Positions 3,247-28,123 of a DNA stretch of 34,748 bases are shown here, one piece after another. This DNA is from an uncultured bacterium (GTDB lineage: Bacteria > Cyanobacteriota > Vampirovibrionia > Gastranaerophilales > Gastranaerophilaceae), in contig CADCNV010000008.1 in NCBI GenBank assembly GCA_902802825.1, forward strand, positions 1-34,748, in the 5' to 3' direction. The number at the start of each line of letters is the position of its first letter. Within the stretch, counting starts at the first letter, position 1. The notes under the pieces are model-generated. The model saw only the letters and a program-made list of their open reading frames with translations. It was not told the origin of the DNA and did no database searches. The translations under genes and the position numbers were made by a program.

Positions 3247-3450
3247 ATGAAAGCAGATATTCATCCGGAATATAAGAAAACAGTTATCAAATGTGTATGC
3301 GGCAACGAAATTGAAACCGGCTCAGTTCAGGACAACATCACTGTTGAAATTTGCAACAAATGCCATCCGTTCTACACAGGACAACAAAAAATTCTTGACT
3401 CTGAAGGAAGAGTTGAAAGATTTAACAAAAGATACGGTAAGAAAAACTAA
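3247..3450 (+). CDS. rpmE: 50S ribosomal protein L31
   Basis: A 67-residue protein starting [10 protein letters not shown], standard for bacterial L31, a protein of the large subunit that bridges to the small one. It has CVC at 16-18 and CNKC at 36-39, four cysteines placed as in the zinc-binding (C+) form, followed by [24 protein letters not shown] precedes the ATG by 5 bases. It is monocistronic, with its own promoter and a strong terminator. Confidence 0.97.
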
Positions 3451-3469
3451 TCCGTTAACAACTATTTTA

Positions 3470-3500
3470 AAAAAGCTCCGTTTTTTTTTCGGAGCTTTTT
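3470..3500. terminator. Bidirectional terminator between rpmE and the HEAT-like gene
   Basis: AAAAAGCTCCG (3470-3480) and CGGAGCTTTTT (3490-3500) form an 11-bp stem with a T-rich 9-base loop, followed by Ts on both strands. It serves rpmE (+) and the convergent minus-strand gene ending at 3514. Confidence 0.85.
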
Positions 3501-3513
3501 TTATTATACAATT

Positions 3514-4011
3514 TTAGTTTCTCCATCTGTCAGAAATGTAACTCAATATTGCGCCGCCAATTTCTTCATTTGGATCAAACGACTGATTGGGGTTATTCGG
3601 TTTCATTGAATTTTGAATAAGCATTTTGCATAAAGGCCCAAAAGCGTCAGGGACCTGAATTTTACGGTAAATTCCTGCTAAAAATGTCTGTATATTAGGT
3701 GATTGAGTTTCATTAAATCTTGAAAAAACAGGATAAAGTTTATCGATTCCTTTTGTTCCGTTATCCAGCATTCTGTCCATAATATACAGGGTTTCGGTAA
3801 CCTGCGCTTCATTATTTGAATGTTCCAGAATATCTGTCAGGTATGGCAGTGCATTTTCTTTTTGTTTTACAAAATAATCAACTTTATTTTGGTCAAAAAG
3901 ACAGTAATTTCTATTCCGGTTTGGCATATTAACATTTGAATTTGAAACATTATTACCGTACGAATACGTTCTATATGTAGTATATTGATTATTTATAGCA
4001 TTTATTGTCAT
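3514..4011 (-). CDS. Lineage-specific protein with HEAT-like helical repeats
   Basis: A 165-residue protein of unknown role. The first 35 residues are Asn/Tyr-rich and probably disordered. The rest is a run of helix pairs (YFVKQKENALPYLTDILEHS, then QVTETLYIMDRMLDN and later units) that looks like HEAT/ARM-type repeats, as does the unrelated-position gene at 29546. No signal peptide is visible. GGAGAT lies about 8 bases before the ATG. It is the third gene behind 5601-6290 and 4067-5611, with only a period-8 repeat between, so probably the same operon. Confidence 0.75.
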   Translation of the reverse strand: MTINAINNQYTTYRTYSYGNNVSNSNVNMPNRNRNYCLFDQNKVDYFVKQKENALPYLTDILEHSNNEAQVTETLYIMDRMLDNGTKGIDKLYPVFSRFNETQSPNIQTFLAGIYRKIQVPDAFGPLCKMLIQNSMKPNNPNQSFDPNEEIGGAILSYISDRWRN

Positions 4012-4066: not shown

Positions 4067-5611
4067 CTATGAATATACAAATGGAGGTCCATTTTTAATT
4101 TCCAGCAAAATGTTTTCTGCCATCGTTTTTAATTCCTGTTTTGTGCGTTTACCGCTATCGACCTGTTTATAAAATTCTTTTACAAGCGGATTTATTGCAG
4201 AATCTTTTTTTGCTTTAAAGTTTCTTAATTCAGTGGAAACAAGACGCTTTTGCAAATCGAGTTCTGTCTGTGCATTTATTTTTTTGACCTGAACATCTTT
4301 TAATGCTTCGCCCGCAAGTTTCCCGCCGTAACCAATTGCGGTAATAGAGGTTATCCCGCCAAACAGTAAACCGAATTGCGGATTTGAAGTATCCAAAAGC
4401 CAATTGTAGAAAAATGCCTTATAATCATCTACAAAAGAATTAAATGCAGGTTTTGGTGTCCCGTCGCCGCCAATATTCGGGTTAACTTTTGTAGTCGAAG
4501 TTTCAATTTTTTCAATAATTTTCTTCTCGAAATTTTCTTTTTCTTCTTTAGTCCAATTTAAAGCAGTGACTTGCTCTTTGATAAATTCTTTTATTCCTTT
4601 TGAATTTTCGATTTCAATGAACATGTGTTCAAGATTTTTTTCATCAATATGTTTAGTTTCATTTGTTGATGTTTTTACAAGCTGAGCAATTGCTTTTTTT
4701 GTTTGTTCAAGGGTTTCCTGCAAATGCATTTTGCTTTTTGTCAGATTTTTCAAAGACAAAAAACCAAGACCGACGATCCCTGCAAGTGTACCGATGCCTA
4801 ATAAAATGTTCCCCAAATTAGTATTTTTGAAAGATTCTTCGCTATTTGTCGTTTTGAGGGCAAAGTCCGAAGAATCCCCTTCATTTCGCTCAGAATGGCG
4901 AGAACTGAATGCAAACTGAGCAAAAGTTTTGCGCCCGAATGGTGTATCCGGTTTTTCTTCAGGCGGATTCAAAAAACCTTCAAAATCTCTCGTATATTTA
5001 GAAAGCATAGAACGAATTATCTGCATTTTGCCTGAAAATGCCTGAGTTTCTACGGCAATTAAATTTTCCTGTAAATTCTTTTGAATGTTTGATTCTTTGC
5101 GCTTTACCCAAATATCTTTGTAGCCGTCAAAGAATGTTTTGCTCATAAATGCCATCGCTGAAAGTGTAAGAACCCCTGCCCCTGCAATAAAAGTTTTGCT
5201 GTTTGGACTTTGAACCATTTGATATATAACCTGTGAGGTTTCTTTACTTAAATTTACGTTTCTGGTAACGGCAGGAAGCCACTTTTCTTTTGCAAGATTT
5301 TTGGAAGCTTTGGCGCTGTAACGTACAAAACCGGTGAGCCCTGCAATTGCACTCATTACTCCCAATGCAATTGTACTTAGCGGTAATAACTTTTTGTCAA
5401 CGATTTGGTTGTCTTTGTATAATTGTGACGGCATAGTAGTATCATCAGATATGACAAAAGTATCTTTCAAATCTGACAGAGAAATATCATTATCTTTAAC
5501 AAAGCTGTTTACAATAACTCCTTCTTTTGTAGAATTAATGTTACGTTTTTGGGATTGAGTCATATTTCTGTGCTGAATCAGTTGTTCGTTTGCAAAAGGA
5601 TTAATGTTCAT
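4067..5611 (-). CDS. Lineage-specific membrane protein with in-frame palindromic repeat
   Basis: A 514-residue protein with no family I recognise. Four hydrophobic segments are visible at about 75-97, 139-161, 268-288 and 412-434, separated by charged, partly coiled-coil regions (290-370, 435-490). The N-terminus contains NPFAN (4-8), a short motif also found in the protein at 29004. Residues 236-260 (SSRHSERNEG...NSEES) are encoded by a copy of a dispersed palindromic repeat and probably form a surface loop just before the third segment. The ATG overlaps the end of the upstream gene by 11 bases, so the two are translationally coupled. Likely an inner-membrane protein. Confidence 0.8.
   Translation of the reverse strand: MNINPFANEQLIQHRNMTQSQKRNINSTKEGVIVNSFVKDNDISLSDLKDTFVISDDTTMPSQLYKDNQIVDKKLLPLSTIALGVMSAIAGLTGFVRYSAKASKNLAKEKWLPAVTRNVNLSKETSQVIYQMVQSPNSKTFIAGAGVLTLSAMAFMSKTFFDGYKDIWVKRKESNIQKNLQENLIAVETQAFSGKMQIIRSMLSKYTRDFEGFLNPPEEKPDTPFGRKTFAQFAFSSRHSERNEGDSSDFALKTTNSEESFKNTNLGNILLGIGTLAGIVGLGFLSLKNLTKSKMHLQETLEQTKKAIAQLVKTSTNETKHIDEKNLEHMFIEIENSKGIKEFIKEQVTALNWTKEEKENFEKKIIEKIETSTTKVNPNIGGDGTPKPAFNSFVDDYKAFFYNWLLDTSNPQFGLLFGGITSITAIGYGGKLAGEALKDVQVKKINAQTELDLQKRLVSTELRNFKAKKDSAINPLVKEFYKQVDSGKRTKQELKTMAENILLEIKNGPPFVYS
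4832..4900 (-). repeat. Palindromic repeat (CATTCTGAG/GATTCTTCG family) inside a coding sequence
   Basis: On the minus strand the order is GCCATTCTGAG, GATTCTTCG, CCCTCAAAACGAC, CGAAGAATC. The same order of blocks occurs at 34586-34650 and, inverted, at 34238-34316 in thiL. Here it is read as RHSERNE..., a different frame from thiL. Confidence 0.75.
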
Positions 5612-6290
5612 ATTCGGCTATCCTTTCTTCTTCACGTTTGAATTTTCTTGAAAGATTGTGTATAAAAGTTTTCAGATTAAATGCTTTTTTTGTCTCATCA
5701 ATTTTTTTGTCGTTATCATCTGTTTCGTCTGCTCCAAAAACAAAAAATATTGATTTGAGCTTCTTTTTAATACTTCCCATAAGATTTGATAGTGACTTTG
5801 TCAACGCAGCTTTGAGCTCTCCGTATACGGCTGCAAGTTTATCTGCAATATCTGCAAATTTTTGTGCAAAATTTGCCATAACATTCGGGATTGCAGACAT
5901 AATGTTAATTACTCTTGCAACAACCTGTGTTAATACAAAATTTACCGGAGCAGAAATAATTGCCGGCATAGATTTTGATATATTCGTAGCAAGGTCAATA
6001 ATTCTTTGATGTATGCTCTCAAGATTTTTCTGAAATTGAACCATTGATTGGATAAAACCCTGTTGAGATGCTTGAGCCCTTTGTTGAGCTGCTTTTTGAG
6101 CTCTTAGCATTGCCCCTATTGCAGCACACTGATTATATGTCATTTCTCCGACATTACGGGGGGTATCACGTTTTGTTGTCGAATTCCCTCCCGCCATTCC
6201 GCTGCATATAGGGCATGCGCCTGCAGGAAGACCATGCGGGCAACAACCTATTTTTGAATTATGAATATGCGGTGCTGCTCCTACTGACAT
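5601..6290 (-). CDS. Cys-rich N-terminal, amphipathic-helix protein of unknown function
   Basis: A 229-residue protein. Residues 15-35 (IGCCPHGLPAGACPICSGMAGG) contain C16, C17, C26 and C29 with a His, a likely small zinc site (CC-H...CPIC). Residues 60-180 are long amphipathic helices with a stretch of mostly hydrophobic residues around 108-135. The C-terminus is highly charged (KFKREEERIAEYEH). There is no classical signal peptide. It is the first long gene of the 6290-to-3514 operon, and its translation start sits behind a structured leader. Function unknown; the zinc site is inferred from spacing. Confidence 0.75.
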   Translation of the reverse strand: MSVGAAPHIHNSKIGCCPHGLPAGACPICSGMAGGNSTTKRDTPRNVGEMTYNQCAAIGAMLRAQKAAQQRAQASQQGFIQSMVQFQKNLESIHQRIIDLATNISKSMPAIISAPVNFVLTQVVARVINIMSAIPNVMANFAQKFADIADKLAAVYGELKAALTKSLSNLMGSIKKKLKSIFFVFGADETDDNDKKIDETKKAFNLKTFIHNLSRKFKREEERIAEYEH

Positions 6291-21415: not shown

Positions 21416-23617
21416 ATGTCAGACGTCGAAACATTTAAAGAATTAAAAGCTATTTTAGAGCAGCAAAATCATACAAGTGATGACATTGCACTTGTTGAAA
21501 AAGCGTATAAATTTGCGAAGAAAACACATGATGGTCAATTCAGGGTTTCAGGTGAACCATACATAATTCATCCTGTTGAGGTTGCAAAAATTCTTGCAGG
21601 GCTTGAAGTTGATATTCATACACTTATGGCTGCGTTTTTGCATGATGTATTGGAAGATACTGATACTTCCCCTGATACCATAAATGAATTATTTGGGGAT
21701 GATGTTTTAAATCTTGTGCAGGGTGTTACAAAATTAGGTAAATTAAAGTTTAAATCGAAGGAAGAACGTCAGGCAGAGAATTTCCGCCGTTTGTTTATTG
21801 CAATGGCAAACGATATAAGGGTTATTTTCTTAAAACTTGCAGACCGCCTTCATAATATGCGGACTCTGAATTTTATGACCCCTGAAAAGCAAAAAAAGAT
21901 TGCGCGTGAAACGCTTGATATTTTCGCTCCGCTTGCCAATCGGCTTGGTATTTATACTATTAAAGCAGAACTGGAAGATTTGTCACTAAAATATTTAGAA
22001 CCGGAAAAATATTTTGAAATTGCTCAGCTTGTTGCCCAAACAAAAGCTGACAGAGATGCAACTGTCAATGAGCTTATTGATAAAATATCTCATGATGTTG
22101 AAAAAAGCGGAATTAAGGCGCAAATTACAGGCAGAGCGAAGCATTATTACAGTATTTACGCCAAAATGAAACGCCAAAATATCACGTTTAACGATTTGTA
22201 TGATGTTACGGCTGTACGCGTAATTGTTGATTCAATAAAAGAATGTTATGAAGTTTTGGGGATTATTCACTCGCAATTTAAACCGATTCCCGGACGTTTC
22301 AAGGACTATATTGCGATGCCCAAAGGCAATATGTATCAATCTTTGCATACATCTGTAATAGGGCCGAGATTAAAGCCGCTTGAAGTGCAGATAAGAACAT
22401 GGGATATGCACAGAACGGCGGAATATGGTGTTGCTGCTCACTGGCGCTATAAAGAAAAGGGCTCTCAAAAGGCGGATGCGGCTACCGATAAACAATTCTC
22501 ATGGCTTCATAAACTTGTTGAGTATGATAAAGAAGTTGCGGATGCAAAAGATTATGTCAGCAGTGTAAAACTCGACTTATTTTCTGATCAGGTATTTGCA
22601 TTTACTCCGAACGGTGATATTTATGATTTCCCGAAAGATGCAACTTGTGTTGACTTTGCATACAGGATTCATACTGATGTCGGTCACAAAACTGTCGGCG
22701 CATTAATTAACGGTCGTATTGTTCCGTTAAGTACAAAACTCAATAACGGAGATATTGTAGAAGTTTTAACTTCAAAAACTCCTGCCCCGCGATTGGATTG
22801 GCTGACATTTGTTGTGACAAAACAGGCATCTTCAAAAATTAAGCAGTGGTTTAAAAAGAATAACAGAGATGAACATATAAATATAGGAAAATCAAGTCTT
22901 GAACATGAGCTTACTAAAGCCGTGTTTGATGAAAATATTAAAAACGGTGAGTTTGAAAAAATAGCAAAAACAATGAATTATCAGTCTGCTGATGATTTGT
23001 TTGCAGCTTTGGGTTATGGAGAAACTACCGTAAGTAAAATAACAAATAAGCTTAAAAAGCCGGAAGAAAAACATATTGAGGACTCATTCCATAAATCGGG
23101 CAGAAAGAGTTCAAGTAAAGATATTATTGGTCTTGAGGGTATGCTTTATTCATTTGCAAGATGTTGTTCGCCAATTCCCGGAGAGCCGATTGTGGGTGTT
23201 GTTACCCGTAACAAAGGTGTAACTGTTCACAGAGTTGATTGCAAAACGCTTGAAACCATTCCGCCTGAACGCATGATGGATATAAAATGGGCAGGAATTA
23301 ATACAAATAAGACTTATACAACAACAATAAGAGTTGAAACTGCAGAGAAGCTTGGATTGTTAAAAGACGTCATTTCTGCGGTTTCCGATAATAATACCAA
23401 TATTGTTAGTGCAAATATTAAAACCAAAAATCATGTCGGTATTATTGAAATAGGTATAGAACTTGATAATATTGACACTTTGAAAAAGGTTATCAATTGC
23501 ATCCAGTCATTGCCGGATGTTTACAGTGTAAAACGTATTCAGACATCAGCAAATATGATAAAAAACACTTCTGCAAATAAACCGCAGAAAAAGAATTATA
23601 AGAACAAAAAAAATTAG
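21416..23617 (+). CDS. rel: Bifunctional (p)ppGpp synthetase/hydrolase, Rel/SpoT
   Basis: A 733-residue stringent-response enzyme. The hydrolase HD domain has IHP (51-53), HDVLEDT (His76-Asp77) and LADRLHNMRT (141-150), so it looks active. The synthetase follows, with RFKDYIAMPKGNMYQSLHTS (294-313); RFKD is the basic form of the loop typical of bifunctional enzymes. TGS (about 392-455), a zinc-finger-like CC (SFARCCSPIPGEP) and a C-terminal ACT domain (about 645-715) complete the long Rel layout. The start has no Shine-Dalgarno and an almost leaderless promoter. A membrane-domain gene cluster follows 12 bases downstream. Confidence 0.96.
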   Translation: MSDVETFKELKAILEQQNHTSDDIALVEKAYKFAKKTHDGQFRVSGEPYIIHPVEVAKILAGLEVDIHTLMAAFLHDVLEDTDTSPDTINELFGDDVLNLVQGVTKLGKLKFKSKEERQAENFRRLFIAMANDIRVIFLKLADRLHNMRTLNFMTPEKQKKIARETLDIFAPLANRLGIYTIKAELEDLSLKYLEPEKYFEIAQLVAQTKADRDATVNELIDKISHDVEKSGIKAQITGRAKHYYSIYAKMKRQNITFNDLYDVTAVRVIVDSIKECYEVLGIIHSQFKPIPGRFKDYIAMPKGNMYQSLHTSVIGPRLKPLEVQIRTWDMHRTAEYGVAAHWRYKEKGSQKADAATDKQFSWLHKLVEYDKEVADAKDYVSSVKLDLFSDQVFAFTPNGDIYDFPKDATCVDFAYRIHTDVGHKTVGALINGRIVPLSTKLNNGDIVEVLTSKTPAPRLDWLTFVVTKQASSKIKQWFKKNNRDEHINIGKSSLEHELTKAVFDENIKNGEFEKIAKTMNYQSADDLFAALGYGETTVSKITNKLKKPEEKHIEDSFHKSGRKSSSKDIIGLEGMLYSFARCCSPIPGEPIVGVVTRNKGVTVHRVDCKTLETIPPERMMDIKWAGINTNKTYTTTIRVETAEKLGLLKDVISAVSDNNTNIVSANIKTKNHVGIIEIGIELDNIDTLKKVINCIQSLPDVYSVKRIQTSANMIKNTSANKPQKKNYKNKKN

Positions 23618-24187: not shown

Positions 24188-24207
24188 AATTCAGGAAAGG
24201 AAAAACA

Positions 24208-24711
24208 ATGTTTAATATATTTTTACTTATAATCATTTGTGCCGTTGCGGCGTTGTTGTTAATGTCAATGTATAAGCGCTGTTCTGAATACGAAATATTG
24301 GTTATTTCTAATAAAAATGACAAAGTAAAGCCAAAAAAAATAATTCCGCCAAAGGGTGGCGCATTTATTAATCCGTTAGTGAATGAGTGTGCTTATGTTC
24401 AGTTACAGGATATTATGAAATTTACGATTCATGATGAAATTTTTCATGAAAATGATTGTGATGAAACATTTGAATGCTCTGTTGGTATTTGCTCAGGAGA
24501 AGAATATTATAATATTTTGGCAGAAAATTTTGCAGGACTTGAGAAAAAACAGATTGCAGAAATTGCAGAAAATATTATAAAGAAAGAATTGTTTGAAATA
24601 GCAAAAGAGGTTGAATTGGTTGATTATTTGAATCTGAAAAATTCAGACGAATATTTTAAACGAATTAACGACAAGCTGAATAAAGTTGGTTTAGAGTTAT
24701 TGGAAATATAA
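24208..24711 (+). CDS. Short SPFH-domain paralog of the adjacent flotillin
   Basis: A 167-residue protein: membrane helix (3-20), then KRC followed by a divergent SPFH domain. It can be aligned with the first ~180 residues of the flotillin downstream: MYKRCSEYEILV with QYKRCPSNKIIV, PKGGAFINPLV with HGGGTFIIPLI, and LNKVGLELLEI with LKKIGLEIINV. It stops where the flotillin coiled coil begins, so it lacks the oligomerising tail. It is more acidic than its neighbour. It lies between the NfeD-like and flotillin genes (20 and 23 bases away). A capping or regulatory subunit is possible. Confidence 0.75.
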   Translation: MFNIFLLIIICAVAALLLMSMYKRCSEYEILVISNKNDKVKPKKIIPPKGGAFINPLVNECAYVQLQDIMKFTIHDEIFHENDCDETFECSVGICSGEEYYNILAENFAGLEKKQIAEIAENIIKKELFEIAKEVELVDYLNLKNSDEYFKRINDKLNKVGLELLEI

Positions 24712-24734
24712 ATAAGAAAGGAGAAAATTAAACC

Positions 24735-26189
24735 ATGGAAGGAATGTTTGGTTTACTTGTCGCAGCGGCTCTAATTTTGGTTGCAATCTTTGCATTTGTT
24801 GCAAATCAATACAAAAGATGCCCGTCAAACAAAATTATCGTAGTTTACGGTAAAACAGGCGGTACAAGAACCGCAAAATGTGTCCACGGCGGTGGTACAT
24901 TTATTATCCCGTTGATTCAAGATTATGGAGTATTGTCATTAGAGCCGATGACAACTGACATTGACCTTAAGGGCGCACTGTCAAAAGGTAATATCCGTGT
25001 TGCTGTTCCGTCAACATTTACATTTGGTATTTCAACCGATGAGAGAATTATGATTAATGCTGCAGAACGTTTGCTCGGATTATCAAGAGCAGAAGTTATC
25101 ACTCAGGCAAGTGATATTATTTTAGGTCAATTACGTCTTGCTATCGCAACATTGTCAATTGAAGAAATTAACCAGGATCGTGAAAAATTCTTAGAACAAA
25201 TTAACGCAAACGTAAACACAGAGTTGAAAAAAATTGGTCTTGAAATCATCAACGTAAACATCAAAGATATTACCGATGAATCAGGGTATATCGATGCTAT
25301 CGGTCGTAAGGCAGCAGCAGAAGCAATAAACAAAGCAAAAGTAGAAGTTGCTCAACAGGAAAAACTTGGTGCTGTCGGTGAAGCTGAAGCAAATAAAGAA
25401 AAAGAAGTACAAGTCGCTCAACAGACTGCTATGACTGAAATTGGTAAAACAAACGCATCTAAAGAACAGCGTATTAAAACTGCTGACTTGGAAGCTCAGG
25501 CAGTTGAGGGTGAAAACATTGCAAAAGCAAATATCGCAGAATATAACGCAACATTATCCGTAAAACAGGCAGATGCCTTCAGAGAAGGGGAAGTTGCAAA
25601 AGCAAACGCTCAGCGTGATGTATTACTTGCTCAAAAAGAACAAGAAGAAGCAAAACTTAAAAAAGAAGAACTTGCAAGACAAGAAGTTGAAAAACTTAAA
25701 ATTCAGGTTGAGGCAGATGCTGAAGCTGAAAGATTAAGAAGAGTTGCAAACGGTCAGGCAGACGCTATAAAAGCAAAATACTTTGCTGAAGCAGAGGGTG
25801 TGAAGGCCGTATTGGAAGCAAAAGCCGCAGGTTATGCTGATTTGGTAAGAATTTCTAATAACAGACCTGAAATTGCTACAAGCTTCCTGATGATTGAAAA
25901 AATCCAGGACATCGTTGCAAAACAGGTTGAAGCAATTAAGAATATCAAATTTGATAAGATTACTGTTTGGGACGGCGGAGCAGGTTCTGCAAACGGTTCT
26001 ACAACCGCTAATTTTATGAGAGATTTAATCAAATCTCTTCCTGCAATGCATGATCTTGCAAATCAGGCAGGTATTGAGTTACCGTCAGTTTTGGGTAAAG
26101 TCGATAACGGAATTGATGACATAAAAGTGGCAGCATCTCCTGTTAAAGAAAAACCTCAAACTCCGACTCTTAAAAAAGAAGATAAATAA
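24735..26189 (+). CDS. floT: Flotillin-like protein (SPFH/band 7)
   Basis: A 484-residue scaffold of functional membrane microdomains. A membrane segment (about 5-24), KRCPSNKIIVVYGKTGG, and an SPFH domain to about 190 are followed by a long Ala/Glu/Lys coiled coil (about 195-350) with EA-rich repeats, the flotillin signature. The C-terminus has the conserved LDLVRISNNRPEIATSFLMIEKI-like helix and a disordered tail after 455. AAAGGAG precedes the ATG by 11 bases. It ends the rel-nfeD-miniSPFH-floT run with its own terminator. Confidence 0.94.
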   Translation: MEGMFGLLVAAALILVAIFAFVANQYKRCPSNKIIVVYGKTGGTRTAKCVHGGGTFIIPLIQDYGVLSLEPMTTDIDLKGALSKGNIRVAVPSTFTFGISTDERIMINAAERLLGLSRAEVITQASDIILGQLRLAIATLSIEEINQDREKFLEQINANVNTELKKIGLEIINVNIKDITDESGYIDAIGRKAAAEAINKAKVEVAQQEKLGAVGEAEANKEKEVQVAQQTAMTEIGKTNASKEQRIKTADLEAQAVEGENIAKANIAEYNATLSVKQADAFREGEVAKANAQRDVLLAQKEQEEAKLKKEELARQEVEKLKIQVEADAEAERLRRVANGQADAIKAKYFAEAEGVKAVLEAKAAGYADLVRISNNRPEIATSFLMIEKIQDIVAKQVEAIKNIKFDKITVWDGGAGSANGSTTANFMRDLIKSLPAMHDLANQAGIELPSVLGKVDNGIDDIKVAASPVKEKPQTPTLKKEDK

Positions 26190-26213
26190 AATTGAATATA
26201 AAATTTAATTTTG

Positions 26214-26246
26214 AAGGGTACACTTTTTGAGTGTACCCTTTTATTT
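26214..26246 (+). terminator. floT terminator
   Basis: AAGGGTACACT (26214-26224) and AGTGTACCCTT (26230-26240) form a perfect 11-bp stem with a 5-base loop and a T-run. Confidence 0.85.
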
Positions 26247-26383: not shown

Positions 26384-28123
26384 ATGGTATACTTGCGCAA
26401 AATCGGGGCTGATGAGCCGATTGTAAGCGGTCAGTCAGTACAGCAAGACAAAAAAGCAAAAAAAGAACAGGTAAAAGTTGTTCCTGTCGGACAAAAAACT
26501 GAAAAAAAATCTGATGAAGCTGATAAATTACCTCAGGGGTATTATATTGAAAAATCGCAGGACGCACCGGCAGCTGAGCCGACCGAAGCTCCTGCTGAAG
26601 ACTTAAAGGAAAAATCGCAGGATGCGCCGGCAGCTGAGCCGAGTGAAGCTCCAGTTGAAGAAGTAAAGAAAAATTTACATAAACAAGAGCAGAAATCAGA
26701 ATCCGCAAATAATAATTATGATGACGTTGATGAACCGGATACAAATGCTTATCCCGGTGCAAGAATAACTGTCGATAATATTGCTTTGGGTCAATCTGAC
26801 AAAGTTGAAGAAGCTCTTGCGGGTGCAGAAATTAAAGGTCTTAATTCTGTCATTCAAGGACCCGCAAGTCAATTAGATAAAGCATTGACAATGATACAAA
26901 CAGATCCGCACAGTGTTTTGGAACCGAATTTTAAAAAAGGCTTTCACGGTACCGGAATTGCCCGCTATGAATTGACTAATTATTCAATTAATATAGATAA
27001 CGAATATAATTCATCTGTTTTTAAAAGAACAACGGACACAAAACGTGTTGATTTCAACGCTACTTATGAAAGTCCTAAGGGTAAAACTAAACTGATGTTA
27101 CATGCATCAGGAACAACTACAGACAGACATGTCAAAGAGGTATCTTCTGAAAATCATATTGCTATTGAACAGGAAATTCCTGAGGTACAAGATGGTTCTC
27201 AGGCATCAGCAGATGGCACTGCAGCAAATGAAAACATTACTGAATCTAAAGAAACCCTTAATCAATACCGTTTGTATCTTGGCGGTAAATTCAAAATTAA
27301 CAAAGATGAATTAAGTGCAAGTGTTATACATGCAAAAGGCGCTTCATTAGATAATTCTAATATGACTCAGATAGATGCAAGATATCATGTCAACAATTAT
27401 AATGTAACATTGGACAGCAGTACCATAATTTATAAAATCGGTCCAAAAACTTCTACAAAAACAAATATTTCTTGCTACTTTAATGCAAAAGAACTCACCA
27501 ATCAAACAGAAAATGAAGCGAATACTGAAAATGAAACAGCGAATGAAAATCAAACTGCTGAAAGTAATCAAACTGCACCTGCAAATTCAGGTAATAAGTG
27601 GACTAAAAGAGGCGGTTTAATTATCAAGGGTGAATCTGTAAATGGTGAATATGAACAGGGTGTAGGTTACTACGAGACTTTTAAGAAGTTAGGTAAAGAT
27701 CATTCTATGCTGAAAATTACCCCGTTCGCAGTTGTTTCTACTACTCCGAGAAAAGAAGAAACAACAAGTTACCATTTTACGAGCGGTGTAAACGTTAAGT
27801 TTAACAAAAAATATAGCAAGGATTCAAACTTGACTGCAAGTTTGGATATCAAAGACAGAATTTCCTTCTGCGGTCAGGATAAAGGTAATACTTTTACGGC
27901 TTTTGTTGATGCGAATTACACAAACAAAAAATTCAATGCAAAATTCGAAGGGAAATACATTTCAGTCCCGGATTCAAAATATTTGGCTTTAGCATTAAGA
28001 GGCGGCTATAAAATAAATAAACATGTACAAGTATTCGGCGAAACAAGTTATTTGAACCAAAAGGACGGAATAACAAAGCTGAAGGGCGGTTCATTCATGG
28101 TTGGCGTTACCGGTACATTTTAG
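26384..28123 (+). CDS. Beta-barrel-like protein lacking a signal peptide
   Basis: A 579-residue protein. Residues 1-110 are charged and disordered, including a 20-residue tandem repeat (56-75 and 76-95, core SQDAPAAEP). A short helical part follows (about 130-180). From about 190 to the end the sequence alternates polar and hydrophobic residues in strand-length units (YRLYLGGKFKI, YNVTLDSSTII, FTAFVDANYTN, MVGVTGTF), ending in phenylalanine, as outer-membrane barrels do. But the N-terminus MVYLRKIGADEPIVSG is not a signal peptide, although AAAGGGGA makes the start convincing. Family unknown. Localisation is unresolved. Confidence 0.72.
   Translation: MVYLRKIGADEPIVSGQSVQQDKKAKKEQVKVVPVGQKTEKKSDEADKLPQGYYIEKSQDAPAAEPTEAPAEDLKEKSQDAPAAEPSEAPVEEVKKNLHKQEQKSESANNNYDDVDEPDTNAYPGARITVDNIALGQSDKVEEALAGAEIKGLNSVIQGPASQLDKALTMIQTDPHSVLEPNFKKGFHGTGIARYELTNYSINIDNEYNSSVFKRTTDTKRVDFNATYESPKGKTKLMLHASGTTTDRHVKEVSSENHIAIEQEIPEVQDGSQASADGTAANENITESKETLNQYRLYLGGKFKINKDELSASVIHAKGASLDNSNMTQIDARYHVNNYNVTLDSSTIIYKIGPKTSTKTNISCYFNAKELTNQTENEANTENETANENQTAESNQTAPANSGNKWTKRGGLIIKGESVNGEYEQGVGYYETFKKLGKDHSMLKITPFAVVSTTPRKEETTSYHFTSGVNVKFNKKYSKDSNLTASLDIKDRISFCGQDKGNTFTAFVDANYTNKKFNAKFEGKYISVPDSKYLALALRGGYKINKHVQVFGETSYLNQKDGITKLKGGSFMVGVTGTF
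26549..26668 (+). repeat. 60-bp tandem duplication inside the beta-barrel gene
   Basis: Two adjacent 60-bp units encode EKSQDAPAAEP[TS]EAP and a short variable tail. The bases are nearly identical over the first part, suggesting a recent duplication. Confidence 0.75.

Follow-up and report, generated by a model that had tools for sequence, protein, structure and literature searches.

A flotillin-like protein without a coiled coil encoded between nfeD-like and flotillin genes in rumen relatives of cyanobacteria

In the solved SPFH complexes, one or two paralogs build a ring or cage, with the SPFH domains at the membrane and the coiled coils forming the wall; hetero-oligomers are common among SPFH cages, and coiled coils together with C termini stabilise that of flotillin (PMC11260169). 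For FloA of S. aureus, the PHB (head) domain has been proposed to drive the formation of dimers and the coiled coil that of multimers, and the NfeD protein contacts the tentacle region (PMC11222466). HflK/C has been found both open and closed, and cages locked in the closed form impair stress recovery (PMC13220708). Two arrangements close to the one described here have been reported (Hinderhofer et al, 2009; PMC2636767): SPFH11b, which has no coiled coil and always adjoins SPFH11a, and an nfeD operon from a cyanobacterium that includes two flotillins (Syc1604_d, Syc1607_d and Syc1608_d).

We analysed a stretch of 34,748 nucleotides from an uncultured rumen bacterium of Gastranaerophilales type (the window), in which a short SPFH gene, referred to below as mini-SPFH, lies between an nfeD-like gene and a full-length flotillin gene. 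The product resembles bacterial flotillins (SPFH2, FloT/YuaG type) in operon position, N-terminal membrane segment, SPFH1-SPFH2 domain and the YKRC motif after the helix, but it lacks the coiled coil and the flotillin C-terminal region and has 167 instead of 484 residues. As in SPFH11a/SPFH11b, adjacent SPFH genes share one operon, one of them is without predicted coiled coil and duplication has been invoked; however, that pair belongs to a different SPFH subfamily with no nfeD partner reported, and the comparison uses the published description of SPFH11b only (PMC2636767). The Syc operon, from the same phylum, likewise combines nfeD with two SPFH2-type genes, but both are listed as SPFH2 members with no missing coiled coil reported (PMC2636767), whereas mini-SPFH consists of the SPFH domain only. 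HflK/HflC, prohibitin 1/2, erlin 1/2 and flotillin 1/2 are also pairs of SPFH paralogs made together, and they co-assemble into hetero-cages; in contrast to mini-SPFH, both paralogs of the solved complexes have the wall helix. Finally, QmcA-YbbJ (8z5g) pairs an SPFH protein with an NfeD partner, and our mini-SPFH model aligns to QmcA with a Z score of 10.1, but QmcA is a single SPFH protein of the stomatin type that retains the region after the SPFH domain. The sequence-only reading of this DNA had treated the arrangement as unprecedented, which is true in part. Coiled-coil-less SPFH genes and two-flotillin nfeD operons were already known (PMC2636767), while we found no description of a coiled-coil-less flotillin inside an nfeD-flotillin operon in the open-licence literature.

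Gene order at the locus

The window carries, in this order, a relA/spoT-type gene (21416-23617), the nfeD-like gene, the mini-SPFH gene, the flotillin gene, a hairpin and a gene for a 579-aa protein (Table 1); the reading frame, coordinates and neighbours given by the sequence-only reading for mini-SPFH were all recovered. The nfeD-mini-flotillin operon likely ends at the hairpin. As for the upstream gene having been called NfeD-like, its distance of ~20 bp from flotillin in relatives speaks for the name, but the support from the Pfam NfeD family is weak, with a full-length match of residues 124-183 scoring 13.4 bits (cut-off 29.1). Flotillin is the sole Band_7 protein above cut-off in the source genome (86% complete) and thus the likely parent and partner of mini-SPFH; on the same grounds, other SPFH families were rejected as its parent.

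The relA/spoT-type (p)ppGpp gene ends 12 bp 5' of the nfeD-like gene. Almost every locus of the genus has a gene of this type shortly upstream of nfeD, and none was detected beside the nfeD-flotillin pair in other genera.

Table 1. Features of the mini-SPFH locus, in coordinates of the window
Feature	Position	Strand	Basis
NfeD-like membrane protein gene, first in the flotillin operon, 185 aa	23630..24187	+	Open reading frame; weak Pfam NfeD match; ~20 bp 5' of flotillin in almost every relative within the order
Probable mini-SPFH ribosome-binding site, AGGAAAGG, 7 nt upstream of the ATG	24193..24200	+	Read from the sequence
Mini-SPFH gene, 167 aa: one membrane helix and SPFH1-SPFH2 domain, no coiled coil	24208..24711	+	Open reading frame, homology, orthologs, predicted structure
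Predicted N-terminal membrane helix of mini-SPFH, residues 2-21	24211..24270	+	Predicted helix H2-21, pLDDT ~90; hydrophobic in 5/5 copies
SPFH domain of mini-SPFH, ~residues 22-167, matching human flotillin-1 residues 1-149	24271..24708	+	VIA-align, Foldseek
Probable flotillin ribosome-binding site AAAGGAG, in the mini-flotillin spacer	24717..24723	+	Sequence
Full-length flotillin, 484 aa: membrane helix, SPFH, coiled coil, flotillin C-terminal region	24735..26189	+	Pfam Band_7 E 7e-29, Flot E 2e-9; best PDB matches human flotillin-1/2
Intrinsic terminator-like hairpin 3' of flotillin, 13-bp stem, then T-rich tail	26213..26241	+	Sequence
Gene for barrel-like 579-aa protein, after flotillin in 4/4 species with mini-SPFH	26384..28123	+	Neighbourhood comparison; no Pfam/NCBIfam family above cut-off

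Homology and predicted structure of the mini-SPFH protein

Mini-SPFH is a conserved coding gene of the nfeD-flotillin operon whose product consists of a flotillin membrane anchor and SPFH domain, with nothing after them. Its alignment to the neighbouring flotillin spans the membrane helix and the whole SPFH domain, with 26% identity over 180 columns (BLASTP, E 1e-8), and a profile comparison of the five known copies against 59 flotillin SPFH domains gave a probability of 98.3% (hhalign, E 1.5e-14). Against the flotillin SPFH profile it scored 51.7 bits in hmmsearch, compared with 6.2 bits for the best unrelated frame among 450 real ORFs; the similarity thus lies far above chance. The Pfam Band_7 score of the window copy was just below the cut-off of 23.6 bits (22.0) and that of the ortholog at locus L036 just above it (24.0). 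The final residues GLELLEI align with GLEIINVN of flotillin, which form the last SPFH strand, so that it is exactly the coiled coil that is missing; the stop codon follows this strand directly in 5/5 copies, none of which has the long coiled coil, while flotillin continues for ~310 residues (coiled coil and C-terminal region). Neither the flotillin C-terminal domain (PF15975) nor the NCBIfam FloT model matches mini-SPFH, and for the neighbouring flotillin the Flot match is above and the NCBIfam FloT match below cut-off. These alignments bear out the earlier description of a protein collinear with the membrane segment and SPFH domain of the next gene that ends before the coiled coil.

The AlphaFold2 model (pLDDT 87.3, pTM 0.76; alignment including flotillin rows) comprises a membrane helix and a complete SPFH1-SPFH2 domain, the full SPFH fold that the sequence-only reading had implied. 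Foldseek returned a human flotillin complex as top match (9l3g_A, E 8.4e-8), and the best 31 matches were all of the SPFH family; VIA-align superposed the model on flotillin-1 (9bq2_B) with a Z score of 13.5 over 143 residues. Because flotillin rows in the alignment favour a flotillin fold, the five mini-SPFH sequences were also folded alone. The resulting model was poor (pLDDT 51.9) and we rejected it as stand-alone evidence for the fold; its top match among 350,542 chains was the Band 7 domain of flotillin-2 (1WIN), which was not significant (E 0.46). A PDB sequence search with the profile of the mini-SPFH sequences gave chance matches only, none of them SPFH. The hydrophobic N-terminal helix at residues 2-21, present in all five copies, is predicted to attach the protein to the membrane.

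Mini-SPFH has diverged strongly from its relatives, with an SPFH identity of ~22-26% to flotillins and changes at most positions with 90% conservation across flotillins of the order. These changes suggest that the flotillin-flotillin interface may not be kept. All copies contain an acidic loop, FxEN[DE], where the corresponding flotillin segment reads LSKGNIR. That the protein is the more acidic of the two, as noted previously, applies to its own genome (pI 4.8 against 6.6 for the SPFH part of flotillin), although other flotillin SPFH domains are also at 5.2-5.7.

Distribution and history

The gene is present in 4/46 genomes of the genus, all carriers being rumen members of the non-photosynthetic relatives of cyanobacteria. 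Orthologs in three other assemblies are 98, 80 and 75% identical to the window protein, and all are intact and 167 aa long; several equally close relatives are without the gene. One carrier, RUG11206 (L034), has a second, tandem copy that is 49% identical to the window protein. Mini-SPFH is under purifying selection, with a dN/dS of 0.04-0.13 among close orthologs; in more distant pairs, synonymous distances are near saturation and the ratios are thus approximate. This range led us to reject a pseudogene. We also rejected the view that mini-SPFH is a longer flotillin cut short by an assembly or frameshift artefact, as four assemblies have the gene intact and followed by a separate full flotillin, as well as a viral or mobile origin, since a scan of viral contigs with the mini-SPFH profile gave no relative.

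In a profile search of 383 genomes of the order, no further short SPFH frame belonging to this family came up. In 172 loci, some of which are overlapping fetches of one place, the median nfeD-flotillin distance was 20 bp, and gene-sized gaps occurred only in the carriers (~540 bp, rising to 1062 bp where there are two copies) and in a distant locus, L109 (653 bp). Sought in relatives, the order nfeD-like, mini-SPFH, flotillin was therefore confined to four species and gave way elsewhere to the pair ~20 bp apart, save for a different small protein at L109. Mini-SPFH always lies in the flotillin operon and was never seen without an adjoining flotillin. A further locus, L062, has a 162-bp nfeD-flotillin spacer (3838-4000) of short repeats (ACTAAGATACTAAGG and similar) instead of the usual 20 bp. 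The flotillin of RUG11085 (L037:4001-5475, also L003) is frameshifted near residue 448 and has lost the usual C-terminal tail, which may be genuine or result from misassembly.

Presence of the gene varies between sister species. The close relatives L032, L033 and L035, with 95-96% identical flotillins, are without mini-SPFH, and relA/spoT unites L036 (with the gene) and L032 (without it) as sisters with 100% support, as does flotillin with 94%. This difference between sisters indicates that the gene has either moved or been lost more than once and makes it an optional module of the operon. The three relatives without the gene have an identical 18-bp nfeD-flotillin junction, which resembles the mini-flotillin spacer of the carriers. 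Between L036 and L032, identity is ~0.92 in relA/spoT, drops to 0.79 in nfeD and rises again within flotillin; dS is 0.91 for nfeD, 0.80 for mazG and 0.52 for relA/spoT. Judging from these profiles, the nfeD-mini part of the operon was likely exchanged by recombination, although nfeD evolves fast in any case.

The 579-aa gene lies directly 3' of flotillin in 4/4 carriers (in RUG11085 as a fragment at the contig end), whereas relatives of it were found in only 3/42 non-carrier genomes of the genus; one of these, in genome G062, is 39% identical and lies on the same contig ~400 bp past flotillin. The sister locus L032 has neither mini-SPFH nor the 579-aa gene in an otherwise identical gene order. 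Since the genomes are few and related, we regard this co-occurrence only as a lead. The 579-aa protein matches no Pfam or NCBIfam family above cut-off and has no obvious signal peptide. By eye, its C-terminal half, with short alternating strands that end in Phe, looks like an outer-membrane barrel. Where carriers have this gene, L033 has, downstream of flotillin and in opposite orientation, a small regulator-like gene (4731-4985), and L032 an apparently broken copy of it (5452-5790).

At L109 (genome G182, of a distant genus), the place between nfeD and flotillin is occupied by a 213-aa protein (3355-3993) with an N-terminal membrane helix followed by YKKARADEIVILYN. Its similarity to flotillin is weak but collinear over the SPFH domain (E 0.012; profile-comparison probability 12%). 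It scored 6.8 bits against the flotillin profile, a value equalled by 3/2,672 shuffles. The protein has no Pfam match, and searches of 9 genomes from its genus and of 383 from the order returned no relative; with the next unrelated ORF at 6.2 bits, we did not accept it as a certain SPFH protein.

Possible roles of a flotillin head without wall helix

The explanation we favour, to which we give an even chance, is that mini-SPFH is a duplicated and truncated flotillin, which persists as a subunit of its own without coiled coil and modifies the flotillin cage from within the membrane-side ring. It would insert beside full flotillin subunits in this ring by SPFH-SPFH contacts and, having neither wall helix nor cap, each copy would leave a gap in the coiled-coil wall or end it. 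Whether a closed cage, an open cage or a smaller oligomer is formed, and thereby how easily membrane proteins enter, would then depend on the ratio of mini-SPFH to flotillin. In this role the protein would not be an obligate subunit but an optional modifier that comes and goes together with neighbouring DNA. The homology to flotillin, the SPFH fold, purifying selection, constant length, operon position, ribosome-binding sites and the terminator after flotillin are all in favour of such a subunit. The protein may cap, seed or regulate flotillin oligomers, as put forward in the sequence-only reading. At the level of sequence, however, the strong divergence of mini-SPFH and the absence of matching changes in the flotillins of the carriers count against the ring-subunit mechanism: co-variation of flotillin or nfeD with its presence gave no signal above that of arbitrary splits, as flotillins showed one such column and arbitrary splits of these species 0-4.

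These two points would fit a protein that acts apart from the flotillin cage, as an adaptor for lipids or proteins that assembles with itself into SPFH dimers or small oligomers at the membrane and may bind the NfeD-like protein. The acidic loop kept in all copies and the possible joint exchange of nfeD and mini-SPFH in L036, suggested by the high nfeD dS relative to relA/spoT, point in the same direction. Nevertheless, an adaptor of this kind would hardly be tied to the flotillin operon without exception, and the part of FloA that contacts NfeD, the tentacle region, is absent from mini-SPFH (PMC11222466), so that we consider this role possible but somewhat unlikely. Its domain content, which is that of a dominant-negative truncation, and its patchy presence among sister species could also suggest an antagonist that blocks cage assembly and is kept as a switch or as a selfish passenger of the operon; we find this improbable, as a pure inhibitor would oddly share the operon of its target and the protein has long been preserved (orthologs 75-80% identical, paralog 49%). 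A functionless, decaying remnant of a flotillin duplication, as close relatives without the gene and its low G+C (29% against 36-39% for the neighbours) might indicate, is highly implausible given an intact frame of equal length in four species and five copies, a good ribosome-binding site and a dN/dS far below 1.

Extending the subunit explanation to L109, wall-less SPFH subunits may have joined the nfeD-flotillin operon more than once, as the 167-aa family and independently as the 213-aa protein, and serve as dedicated openers of flotillin cages. We regard this as unlikely; if true, such repeated openers would be a kind of subunit undescribed for SPFH cages. The locus bears on the way in which SPFH cages let membrane proteins in and on what determines cage size, and the open and closed forms of HflK/C matter for stress recovery. 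A natural SPFH head without wall helix, which shares an operon with flotillin and is missing in sister species, would be a ready tool for testing whether gaps in the wall govern access to the cage.
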